NCBI GenBank assembly: GCA_030425385.1 | Contig: JAUIAH010000001.1 | Span: 558,001-622,000, forward strand | Length of the DNA: 64,000 nucleotides | Direction: 5' to 3' | Origin: Verrucomicrobiia bacterium | Lineage (GTDB): Bacteria > Verrucomicrobiota > Verrucomicrobiia > Verrucomicrobiales > DEV007 | Program-made: the position numbers and the translations under genes | Notes under the pieces: model-generated | Told to the model about the DNA's origin: nothing | The model's input: only the letters and a program-made list of their open reading frames with translations | Database searches by the model: none | Shown here: one piece after another, positions 9,312-47,778 of the stretch | Layout of the letters: every line of letters starts with the position of its first letter | Numbering within the stretch: position 1 is the first letter of the stretch

Positions 9312-9364
9312 GCGCGACGAGCCAGGCGACGGCTCACGATAAACGGTCCAGCCAGCAACGAAAG

Positions 9365-10312
9365 CTAGGAAATGGATTGTGACCCATACCAAGCCAGCGT
9401 TTCGGCCAAACCGGATTCCAACGAGCCCGTCGGTTCGAATCCGGCCTCTCGCAGCTTGTCGACCTTCGCCAAAGAGTGGCGGACATCCCCCGGACGCGTC
9501 TCAGTCTTGCGAATCGTGGATGTCGATCCGGTCTCTCTGAGGATGCGCTCAGCGAGATCCTGGATGGTCAGTTGTTCACCATAGCCCACGTTGTAGACGC
9601 CGGAGACGGTGGGCGTCATCGCCGCAAAGGCGTTGGCCGCCGCCACATCCTTCACATACACAAAGTCACGTGTCTGACCACCATCGCCGTAGATGGTGAT
9701 GGGCTCGTCCCGCAATGCCCGGTCAATGAAGATTGGGACCGCCGCCGCATACGCACTGTTAGGATTCTGGCGAGGTCCAAACACGTTGAAGTAGCGGAGC
9801 GCGGCAAACTGGACCTTGCCCTCACGTGCATACATTTCTCCGTAATACTCTCCATCCAGCTTGGTAATCGCATAGGGACTCATGGGTTCAGGCACCATCG
9901 TCTCGACCTTCGGCACCGTTGGGTTGTTGCCATAGATTGCCGCCGAACTACTCAGGACCACTTTACGGACGCCCGCCTGGCTTGCCGCCTCCAACACGTT
10001 TATGAATCCGACCACATTGAGTTCCTGACACAGCAAGGGCGCCTCCATCGATTCCGGCACACTGATCAAGGCGGCGAGATGAAAGACATAGTCCACCCCA
10101 TCCATGGCCTCTGCCACGACCGCAGGATCGGTGATCGATCCGCGGATGAAGCGATGCTCCAATCCCGCCAAATTCTCCAGATTCCCGCTCCGCAAATCAT
10201 CCAGCACTCGAATCTCGCGCGCGCGTCCCTGGAAATGCTCCACCAAATGGCTGCCAATGAAACCGGCTCCACCGGTGATAAGAATGCTAGGTTGATCATG
10301 GTCGACCGACAT
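9365..10312 (-). CDS. NAD-dependent sugar-nucleotide epimerase (extended SDR, GalE/WbpP-like)
   Basis: The 315-aa protein has the Rossmann motif TGGAGFIGSHL near residue 14, the aspartate binding the NAD ribose (VLDDLRSG), the SSSAAIYG strand, and the catalytic YAITK. GPRQNPNSAYAAAVP, YGDGGQTRDFVYVKDVA and RPGDVRHSLA are substrate-side motifs shared by UDP-glucose and UDP-N-acetylglucosamine 4-epimerases, closest in feel to the WbpP group. It interconverts UDP-hexoses or UDP-HexNAc for envelope polysaccharides. It is the first gene of a leftward cluster and is divergent from the sensor-kinase gene across a 183-nt shared promoter region. The exact sugar is not determinable here. Confidence 0.9.
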   Translation of the reverse strand: MSVDHDQPSILITGGAGFIGSHLVEHFQGRAREIRVLDDLRSGNLENLAGLEHRFIRGSITDPAVVAEAMDGVDYVFHLAALISVPESMEAPLLCQELNVVGFINVLEAASQAGVRKVVLSSSAAIYGNNPTVPKVETMVPEPMSPYAITKLDGEYYGEMYAREGKVQFAALRYFNVFGPRQNPNSAYAAAVPIFIDRALRDEPITIYGDGGQTRDFVYVKDVAAANAFAAMTPTVSGVYNVGYGEQLTIQDLAERILRETGSTSTIRKTETRPGDVRHSLAKVDKLREAGFEPTGSLESGLAETLAWYGSQSIS

Positions 10313-43669: not shown

Positions 43670-45910
43670 TCAGGGGGCTGCTACTGGTCCTGGATGGAGA
43701 TCGATCTGGTAGAAACGTCGAACGGTGGTCTTGGGGATGTCGACATAGAGGCGATAGAGATTCCCTGAATGCCTCGTGATCGTTGCCCCTGCATCTCCCC
43801 AAGAGAGCGCGCCGAGCGTGGACGACGTGAGAAGCGTCAGTTCGACGGTTCCCCTCACAATGATGCTGAAATGCACTCGTGTGGTGACATTGTCAGGAAG
43901 ATCTTCCATGGAATCCATCTCAAGACAACGCTCCACGATCACCGGATCGCAGGGCATGTAGCACAGGTGATCAATCCAGAACTCCTGCCCACCGATTCCA
44001 AACTCAGTGATCGGTCCACCCCAAATCTCTAACACACCAATCACACCGCCAGCAACCGTGCCCTGGGTGACCGAGATGGTCAGACTACCCACCGTCATCC
44101 CATCAAAGTCACTAAGATCATCTCCGATAAGAGGGGTGCCGTTGAGCAGAAGATTCACAATGCCCCCATAGTCGCCAAAGTGTAAGCGTATCCTCTCGGC
44201 GCAGTCGACGCCGACGCGTAGATTGGCATTGACCAGGGCCAGATCATTGCCCAAGTGACCCGCTTTGTTGGCGTCGTCTACCACCGCCATGCCAGCACTG
44301 GTGGTGGTCCCATTGGAGAAGAGGAATCTCTCAACGGTCATCGTGATGCCATCTTCAGAGAAAGCTTCGTTCACGGCATACTCTTTGGTCACGGGTAGCG
44401 CCTCGAAATCAATGCAGTCTGGCAGAGGTTGGCACGGTGTGAAGCAGACATGATCAATCCACAGCTCTTGGCCGCCGATGCTGATCGACTGGATGGTTCC
44501 CTCTAGCACAAGCACGCCCTGCTCACCCCCATTCACGCTCATGTGGCGAATGGTCACCAGGACTCCCCCAATCGTCGAGCCGCTGAGATTCGAGAGCGGC
44601 CCTGTGTGACTGACAGGCTCTCCATTGATCTCCAAATGGATATCCCCCCCAAAGTGCCCGTAGTACAGCGATAGATGGGTGGCGCAATCAATGAGGAAAT
44701 CGAGCTTGGCGTCATTGAGAAGGAGATCGTTCCCGGCGTGGTTTGCTCGGAGATTGTCATCAGCGGCGACAAAGCCTCCCGAAGCGTTGTTGAACTTCCC
44801 GACGGTCATGATCACGCCATCCTCGCTGAATCCCTCGCCCTCCCCATATGGAACCCTCACAGTGAGCTCCTCGAAGTCAATGCAACTCATTCCGGCGCAG
44901 GGCTCGTAGCAAATGTGGTCCATGGCAAACTCCTGACCACCGAGCTCAAACTCTTTGATCTCCCCTTCGAAAGTTAGAATGCCGAGGTAGCCGCCCTCTA
45001 CTTCCCCGGACTTCTGCACCGAAACCTGAGCACGCCCGAGGGTGAGCCCATCGGCATCCAGGAGGTTGCCAAGATTCGCCATGTCTCCATTCACACTCAG
45101 ATTCACATTGCCACCATATGCACCGAAGTGGACCTCGACGCGGCCCACACATTCGTAAAAAAGGAAGCGAAGATTGGCGTTGTTGGTCGTCACTTCCGGA
45201 CCCGTATGGCCAGCGGTTCCCACGCTCTCTCTAGCGAAACCTTGATCGGTCGTGGAACCGTTCGCGAAGGCAAACGGCGTCACCTGAATACTGACAAAGT
45301 CCTCTTGCCACTCATCTCCCACTGTGAGATCTCCATCCGGCACGGGTGGCTCGGAAAAGTCGATATAGCGGCGATCCCCTGGATCCGTGCCAGGGCATAG
45401 CGTGTAACAGAGATGATCGAGTGCAAATTCGCTTCCGCCAATCGCTAACGTCGTCACATTCCCGGTGAGCGTGACGATGCCGGTGTTCGCGCCCGTCTGC
45501 ATCATGCTGACATTGACCCCGCCCACAAGCAATCCATCGAGATCGCTGGGCGAGCTGACAATTCGGAAGTCACCATTCACACTCAAGTTGAGATTGCCTC
45601 CAAAGCTACCAAAGTGATAGGAAACGGACTCCGTGCACGGGAAACTTAGCTGGATGGTCGCATTATTGAACACCAAGTCTTGTCCATTGTGCCCGGCGCT
45701 TTGGAAGTCACGCACCCGGACAAACCCATCGGTGACAGTGGTGCCGTTTCCCGATTGGAAAGGTCCCACCTGCACGGTCGTGCCAGTCGTCGAGAACGTG
45801 TCGCCATTGTTGTAGGTCGTATCCAGGACTAAATCTTCGAAGTCGAGGTATTCTTGGCCACTAACGATATTTCCAAAGGCCATGGATAGAAGGAGAAGAA
45901 GTCGCTTCAT
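43670..45910 (-). CDS. Secreted protein with four tandem roughly 165-residue cysteine-containing domains
   Basis: I start at the ATG giving MKRLLLLLSMAFGNIVSGQ, a signal peptide, for 746 aa. Four repeats follow, each opening with DFE-L, then a GTT/F-rich strand, AGHxGxDL and N-A-L. Next come a Cys near the middle, HFGxYGGxxNLxxNG, and the end IGGQEFxxDHLCYxPC, with two or three Cys per unit. The C-terminus (TVRRFYQIDLHPG) is the short verrucomicrobial exoprotein tail. The order of strands suggests a jelly-roll or sugar-binding fold, but I recognise no family. It is divergent from the lyase/TraB fusion gene. Confidence 0.88.
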   Translation of the reverse strand: MKRLLLLLSMAFGNIVSGQEYLDFEDLVLDTTYNNGDTFSTTGTTVQVGPFQSGNGTTVTDGFVRVRDFQSAGHNGQDLVFNNATIQLSFPCTESVSYHFGSFGGNLNLSVNGDFRIVSSPSDLDGLLVGGVNVSMMQTGANTGIVTLTGNVTTLAIGGSEFALDHLCYTLCPGTDPGDRRYIDFSEPPVPDGDLTVGDEWQEDFVSIQVTPFAFANGSTTDQGFARESVGTAGHTGPEVTTNNANLRFLFYECVGRVEVHFGAYGGNVNLSVNGDMANLGNLLDADGLTLGRAQVSVQKSGEVEGGYLGILTFEGEIKEFELGGQEFAMDHICYEPCAGMSCIDFEELTVRVPYGEGEGFSEDGVIMTVGKFNNASGGFVAADDNLRANHAGNDLLLNDAKLDFLIDCATHLSLYYGHFGGDIHLEINGEPVSHTGPLSNLSGSTIGGVLVTIRHMSVNGGEQGVLVLEGTIQSISIGGQELWIDHVCFTPCQPLPDCIDFEALPVTKEYAVNEAFSEDGITMTVERFLFSNGTTTSAGMAVVDDANKAGHLGNDLALVNANLRVGVDCAERIRLHFGDYGGIVNLLLNGTPLIGDDLSDFDGMTVGSLTISVTQGTVAGGVIGVLEIWGGPITEFGIGGQEFWIDHLCYMPCDPVIVERCLEMDSMEDLPDNVTTRVHFSIIVRGTVELTLLTSSTLGALSWGDAGATITRHSGNLYRLYVDIPKTTVRRFYQIDLHPGPVAAP

Positions 45911-46002
45911 AGAATGAGAGTCCACAATGATCTGGAGATGGTCAAGAAGCCCGGACCGGGTTCGCGGGATTGAGGGTCGTTCACGGCATCAGTCAAATAA
46001 AT

Positions 46003-46065: not shown

Positions 46066-47778
46066 ATGAAGTTCGCTTTCCTTTCGACGATCGTGCTACT
46101 CGCTTATCTGTGTGGAGCCGATGCAGAGATCCACGCGCTGCCTTCGGGTCATGGTCTCGCCCAAGCCTATCCCTATGACCAGGACCTCACTTCCCATCCG
46201 GCAGTGATCTTTGCAGAGACCTTTGAAGATCCTAACTACGCCGAACGCTGGGATGAGGTGCGGGACCACGATGAGAAAGTGCTCGCATTGGTGCATCCGG
46301 AGGATCACCGCCTAGGAGAGGCCGCTCTCCAGGTCCGCGGGGATTTGGCCCATAACACCGGTGGCGGATTGACCAAATGGTTCGCCTCGGCGCCCACGGT
46401 TTATATCCGCTTCTATACGAAATTTGCTCCCGATGCCGACTACATTCATCATTTCGTGACACTGCGCGCAAACAAAGGGCTGCAGGGCAAGGATCGCTGG
46501 TCGGGATTCGGAGGCGCTGGCAATCTGCCTGACGGCGACCTCCGCTTTTCCACCGCCTTGGAGCCGTGGGGGAATTGGGGCAAATGGCCCGCACCTGGTC
46601 GATGGAATTTCTACAGTTATTGGCATGAAATGGAGGCTTCGCCCGATGGGAAGTATTGGGGTAATAGCTTCAAACCTGAAGAAGTGCCTAATATTACTAA
46701 GGGAGAATGGATCTGTTGTGAGTTCATGCTGAAGCATAATACGCCGGGTGTTCCTGATGGTGAGCAGGCCTTTTGGATCGATGGAAAGCTCTTGGGACAT
46801 TGGAAGGATATTTCCTGGCGCACGTCGCCAACGCTGTGGGCCAATGCCTTGACTTTGGAGGCTTATATCACGGATCGGTGGACTAAACACCCGATCAATC
46901 GAGTCACCTTCGATAACCTTGTGGTGGCTCGTGATTATATCGGTCCGGTTGTGACCGAGCCAGCGGAGCCGACCGATTTCGTGCGCTTTGTCGATCAACC
47001 AGATCAAGCGACTCTGGAAGTGGCCAGCGTTTCCTATGGCCGCGAGGACGGCGTCACCGTGGATTTGGTCGGAGCCGTTCACGTGGGTGATGCAGCCTAT
47101 TATGCCATGCTCAACGAGCGGTTTCGAGCGTATGATCGAGTGCTTTATGAGATGGTCGGTGACCCCAATGCAGCTCCGCCTGTCGAGGTGGAGGCGGGCG
47201 CCACAATGGTGCGGGGTATGCAACGTGGCATGATGCGTCTGCTAGATCTCGCTTATCAGCTCGATGCCATCGATTACACGCCTGAGAATTTCGTCCATGC
47301 AGACCTTACTTATGAGGAGTTCTCCAAACTTCAGGAAGAGCGGGGTGAAACGATGTTCACGCTGATTCAGAATGCCATGAAGCGGCAGTTGGAAATGGAT
47401 CCGGAGGAGATCCCTGAAGTTGGGGTGGGTGACCTTTTCCGGGCGTTCACAGGGGGCGACCAATCAAGTGCGCTTAAATTGCTCGTGGCGAAGCAGTTTG
47501 ATGAAATGGAATCGCTGCTTGCGGGGGCCGAAGAAGGGAGCGGCACCGTGATCCTGACCGGCCGCAACGAACGCGTGATAGACATTCTAAATGAGCAGAT
47601 CGAGGAGGGCGAAGAGCGCTTGGCGATCTTCTACGGTGCCGCCCACTTTGTGGGAATTGAAGAACTCTTGCTAGAACTCGGCTTTCACAAGAAAAGCCAC
47701 GAGTGGATGGTCGCATGGGACATTCCCAAGCCAGAGGTGAAGAAGCGTGGAAGCTTGCTCGATTTCTTTCAATTCTGA
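46066..47778 (+). CDS. Secreted fusion: polysaccharide-lyase-like jelly roll plus TraB/PrgY/GumN-like domain
   Basis: The 570-aa protein has a signal peptide (MKFAFLSTIVLLAYLCGADA). Residues about 35-305 form a lyase-like beta domain (YIRFYTKFAPDADYIHHFV, GEWICCEFMLKHNTPG, QAFWIDGK, NRVTFDNLVVARDYIGP), closest in feel to PL14-type jelly rolls. Residues about 320-560 match the TraB/PrgY/GumN group: VDLVGAVHVGDAAYYAML near the start and IFYGAAHFVGIEELLLELGF near the end, carrying the paired Gly-x-x-His motifs that this clan uses for metal. I know no described protein joining these two domains, and the second half usually stands alone. Polysaccharide binding plus a periplasmic hydrolase is inference. 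Confidence 0.82.
   Translation: MKFAFLSTIVLLAYLCGADAEIHALPSGHGLAQAYPYDQDLTSHPAVIFAETFEDPNYAERWDEVRDHDEKVLALVHPEDHRLGEAALQVRGDLAHNTGGGLTKWFASAPTVYIRFYTKFAPDADYIHHFVTLRANKGLQGKDRWSGFGGAGNLPDGDLRFSTALEPWGNWGKWPAPGRWNFYSYWHEMEASPDGKYWGNSFKPEEVPNITKGEWICCEFMLKHNTPGVPDGEQAFWIDGKLLGHWKDISWRTSPTLWANALTLEAYITDRWTKHPINRVTFDNLVVARDYIGPVVTEPAEPTDFVRFVDQPDQATLEVASVSYGREDGVTVDLVGAVHVGDAAYYAMLNERFRAYDRVLYEMVGDPNAAPPVEVEAGATMVRGMQRGMMRLLDLAYQLDAIDYTPENFVHADLTYEEFSKLQEERGETMFTLIQNAMKRQLEMDPEEIPEVGVGDLFRAFTGGDQSSALKLLVAKQFDEMESLLAGAEEGSGTVILTGRNERVIDILNEQIEEGEERLAIFYGAAHFVGIEELLLELGFHKKSHEWMVAWDIPKPEVKKRGSLLDFFQF

Follow-up and report, generated by a model that had tools for sequence, protein, structure and literature searches.

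The open reading frame considered here lies at positions 46066–47778 (+) of the window, the whole stretch of 64,000 nucleotides that was analysed (positions 558001–622000 of contig C55 of genome G000). It is a single uninterrupted frame, running from an ATG at 46066 to a TGA at 47778 and encoding a protein of 570 aa. The N-terminus (residues 1–20; 46066–46125, +) is signal-peptide-like both in sequence, MKFAFLSTIVLLAYLCGADA-EI, and in hydropathy, which peaks at 2.6. It is followed by an N-terminal half (residues ~25–296; 46138–46953, +) assigned as a beta jelly roll of the PL14/PL36 type, a short junction (TEPAEP, residues 297–302; 46954–46971, +) and a C-terminal half (residues 303–570; 46972–47775, +) assigned as a TraB/PrgY/GumN-like domain. 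The first assignment draws on the comparison of an AlphaFold model with PDB structures, Pfam matches across the family, profile alignment to PL14 and invariant residues, the junction on the ends and starts of stand-alone homologues, and the last on a Pfam match above the cut-off and columns invariant among 20 homologues. Upstream, on the opposite strand (43670–45925, −), lies a gene for a large secreted-looking protein in which four repeats of ~165 residues (CIDFEEL... HFG.YGG..NLSVNG) can be discerned by eye, and of which only traces were found, in two genomes of the same genus. ARAGORN called a tRNA-Ala gene at 9358–9453 (+) whose anticodon, AGC, is unusual in bacteria; the call may be a false positive. 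No gene of the window adjoins either half of the 570-aa protein in related genomes.

The AlphaFold model of the N-terminal half, built with 49 homologues, is a confident beta-sandwich jelly roll (pLDDT 89.8, pTM 0.87). Its nearest solved structures (Foldseek, VIA) are alginate lyases of families PL14 and PL36 (5gmt, 3gne and 6kcw). Superposition on PL14 AkAly30 and vAL-1 and on PL36 Aly36B gave Z-scores of ~20 and rmsd values of 2.5–2.6 over 213–224 residues, the shared jelly roll spanning residues ~45–291, and a fungal glucuronan lyase followed with a Z-score of 17.9. Sequence identity to the PL14/PL36 enzymes is nevertheless low (12–16%), and an insert of ~37 residues before the YxY strand sets the two apart. 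Matches to Pfam were modest: the N-terminal half alone hit Polysacc_lyase_14 weakly (E 0.14) and the protein scored 12.3 bits against PF21294, under the gathering cut-off of 27, so that the domain is classed as a relative of PL14 and not as a member. Across the family, 46 of the 49 members match Polysacc_lyase_14 at E ≤ 1 (best 7.8e-6), and a profile–profile comparison (hhalign) with true PL14 members from related genomes gave a probability of 99.3. In that alignment the segment N-F-Y183-S-Y185 falls on the YxYH strand of PL14, so that Y183 and Y185 match the catalytic Tyr-x-Tyr pair of the latter family. None of the 49 sequences, the fused one included, departs from these two residues or from H128, H129, R134, S162, E166 and H187. 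The part of PL14 with the catalytic lysine (GGK segment) and the Ser-x-Arg could not be aligned with confidence; the lysine was given no counterpart, and R134 and S162, though invariant, are putative matches to the Ser-x-Arg. According to the model, then, the N-terminal half is a jelly roll of the PL14/PL36 type which probably cleaves an acidic, uronate-containing polysaccharide by beta-elimination, or at least binds one; because the lysine is unmatched, lyase activity is no more than likely. Some 67 kb before the window begins, the same contig encodes a protein of 636 aa (L142:166-2073) in which a right-handed beta-helix with a chondroitinase-B-like trace is combined with a true PL14 domain; homologous arrangements occur in two genomes of the same genus (L139 in G001 and L140 in G003).

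The C-terminal half matched, over residues ~303–565, the Pfam family TraB_PrgY_gumN (PF01963) with 32.6 bits (E 9.5e-8), above the gathering cut-off of 26.8. The whole protein likewise exceeded that cut-off (29.2 bits), the fused gene scored 23.8 in a six-frame search of the genome, and half of the C-half homologues (10/20) matched the family at E ≤ 1. Alignment of the 20 homologues over the entire domain revealed the invariant elements G336-x-x-H339, E362, H411-A-D413, R500-N501 and G524-x-x-H527. The first GxxH motif lies within GAVHVGD (residues 336–342) and the second within YGAAHF (residues 523–528), whereas H411-A-D413 ends a conserved stretch, N408-F-V-H411-A-D413. For a hydrolase of the TIKI superfamily, to which TraB/PrgY/GumN proteins belong, an active site and mechanism involving two histidines and two glutamates have been described from a crystal structure (PMC6254334). 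Judged by sequence, G336-x-x-H339, E362 and G524-x-x-H527 correspond to the His/Glu motifs of that superfamily, the likeness consisting of the two GxxH motifs and the glutamate after the second strand, although the domain is distant from characterised members. E482 and E489 are also invariant and are candidates for the second catalytic glutamate. The C-terminal half probably hydrolyses an ester or peptide bond by means of the two GxxH histidines and a glutamate. A single-sequence structure model of this half was unusable (pLDDT 37), and the fold assignment accordingly comes from the Pfam match and motif conservation. Neither the whole protein nor the family profile of either half found a useful counterpart among PDB sequences, and no relatives of the C-terminal half were found in viral contigs.

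In order to locate the boundary between the halves, the ends of their stand-alone homologues were compared. Those of the N-terminal half end from a few to ~20 residues past the motif (R/K)xYIGP, and those of the C-terminal half begin with a signal peptide that leads directly into [TS]DF[IL]RF. The fusion point lies just past the usual end of the former and just past the usual signal peptide of the latter, so that a single export signal now covers both halves. Unlike its free-standing counterparts, the C-terminal half has no signal peptide of its own: hydropathy reaches no more than 0.87 in residues 285–330 around the junction, and residues 1–20 are the only export signal of the protein, which is predicted to be secreted, to the envelope or the extracellular space. 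Separate translation of the C-terminal half from an internal start was considered and rejected, as residues 285–347 contain no ATG, only GTG and TTG codons, and the product would be without an export signal. A preliminary description of this DNA had proposed one secreted protein with an N-terminal half of the polysaccharide lyase family 14-type fold and a C-terminal half carrying the GAVHVGD and GAAHF motifs of the TraB/PrgY/GumN group. The open frame and its signal-peptide-like start, the jelly roll with its profile–profile match and the above-threshold Pfam score with conserved motifs bear this out. The domain boundaries given there (residues 30–310 and 315–565) were near the mark, the homologues placing the junction at residues 296–303 instead.

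In related bacteria the halves are unremarkable secreted proteins encoded apart from each other, the N-terminal one occurring in Verrucomicrobia and Planctomycetes and the C-terminal one all through the order. Both are carried by 13 of the 96 related genomes (G003, G009, G011, G013, G023, G050, G062, G073, G076, G077, G082, G089 and G094, some of the matches being divergent), on different contigs every time. The C-terminal half is far more widespread in the order, and most of the genomes that bear it have no N-terminal half. Around ~80 N-half loci of a species-wide collection, not one C-half gene was found within ~5 kb, and in relatives the two share no gene neighbourhood, the adjoining genes having no common theme. 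No second joined copy was detected in 96 related, 387 order-level, 384 class-level and 387 phylum-level genomes (overlapping samples), Planctomycete genomes being covered only through the N-half loci of the species-wide collection. Nor was a report of a TraB domain paired with a lyase found in the literature searched. The initial supposition that this pairing is undescribed hence holds for the genomes and literature covered, with the reservation that either half is common as a stand-alone secreted protein. Among the closest known proteins are the free-standing verrucomicrobial homologues of either half, for example those from two separate genes of the same-genus genome G003, the products of which, unlike it, each possess their own signal peptide: one is 63% identical to the N-terminal half (L114) and the other 48% identical to the C-terminal half (L113). 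The N-half family is found joined to other domains in other metagenome-assembled genomes, namely to LamG and a GH32 N-terminal domain (L035:4890-7877) and downstream of a nucleoside hydrolase (L053:3975-5822). As in the protein described here, the partner is another extracellular enzyme-like domain, but in neither case a TraB domain; the family therefore seems prone to fusion.

Phylogenetic trees place both halves with proteins of the same genus, the N-terminal one clustering with those of G001 and G002 (support 100/98) and the C-terminal one with that of G003 (95/95). The branch leading to the fused C-terminal half is close in length to that of its free-standing sister (0.86 versus 0.73), indicating that the domain is not decaying. 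The gene is the only C-half and the only TraB-family match of its genome, in which the nearest other relative of the N-terminal half is a PL14 protein of 25% identity elsewhere on the same contig. Horizontal acquisition of the C-terminal half was rejected on the basis of its position in the trees and of its local codon usage. Loss of a stop codon between adjacent genes was rejected as well, the halves being nowhere neighbours and the signal peptide of the second being gone. Since the halves are common as stand-alone proteins in relatives, the fused protein most probably represents a lineage-restricted gene fusion, seen in one genome and one assembly. What is unusual is the one-off combination; both parts are of known kinds and do not constitute a new type of enzyme. 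It is likely that two resident genes of a Verrucomicrobiales bacterium, each encoding a separate secreted protein in relatives, were recently fused in frame and that the fusion has since stayed intact. The product would be an envelope or extracellular protein in which one Sec signal peptide precedes both the PL14/PL36-like jelly roll and the TraB/TIKI-type hydrolase. The fusion would probably provide shared export and keep the hydrolase beside the polysaccharide recognised by the jelly roll.

It is possible, if rather unlikely, that the fusion is an evolutionary accident in which the domains keep separate jobs and share transport only. Elsewhere the halves are neither co-localised nor provided with shared neighbours, the C-terminal one is far commoner in the order, and the N-terminal one has also been joined to the unrelated domains of L035 and L053. 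Nothing decisive speaks against this account, since the precision with which the second signal peptide was removed shows only that the exported fusion was viable. We infer that the halves may have a joint function and a shared substrate. A real partnership, in which the lyase and the TraB/TIKI-type hydrolase would act on a single composite substrate such as an acidic polysaccharide with ester- or peptide-linked groups, appears improbable; given the absence of a shared neighbourhood in relatives and the many C-half genomes without the N-terminal half, a functional partnership that preceded the fusion is not indicated. Quite improbable, too, is that the fusion is real and only one half works, the jelly roll serving to export the TraB domain and to anchor it to carbohydrate but not acting as a lyase. 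Jelly rolls of this shape also occur in lectins, as the calreticulin matches illustrate, and the region of the PL14 catalytic lysine could not be aligned. However, calreticulin and GH16 structures score below the lyases (Z 15–16), and Tyr183, Tyr185, His128, His129, Arg134, Ser162 and Glu166 are invariant in the 49 homologues; a role confined to polysaccharide binding, as the preliminary description had guessed, is on account of these residues not favoured over lyase activity. An assembly or base-calling artefact, whether a chimeric contig or a stop or frameshift overlooked between adjacent genes, is likewise unlikely. The join is seen in a single assembly of 74 contigs, the halves lie apart in all other genomes with both and the N-terminal one is free-standing in the same-genus G001 and G002. 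Against an artefact, however, the contig is at least 622 kb long and the joint sits well within it, and the 251 bp of the joint occur only once in the genome, leaving no repeat that would cause a misjoin. In codon usage both halves fall inside the range of neighbouring genes, no separate C-half or TraB gene remains, and, had a stop merely been missed, the C-terminal half would still have its own signal peptide.

Returning to a recent in-frame fusion of resident genes, its interest lies in the two families involved. TraB/GumN proteins are widespread in bacteria, yet for most of them no substrate is known, and a true partnership of the halves would hint at one for this obscure family. The fusion to a lyase-like domain is a testable hint that this TraB/GumN branch may act on extracellular or envelope polysaccharide-associated material, if a weak one, because the fusion occurs in one genome only and the halves are not otherwise associated. 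In addition, the homologue sets define a conserved PL14-related family of Planctomycetes and Verrucomicrobia that is open to direct assay.
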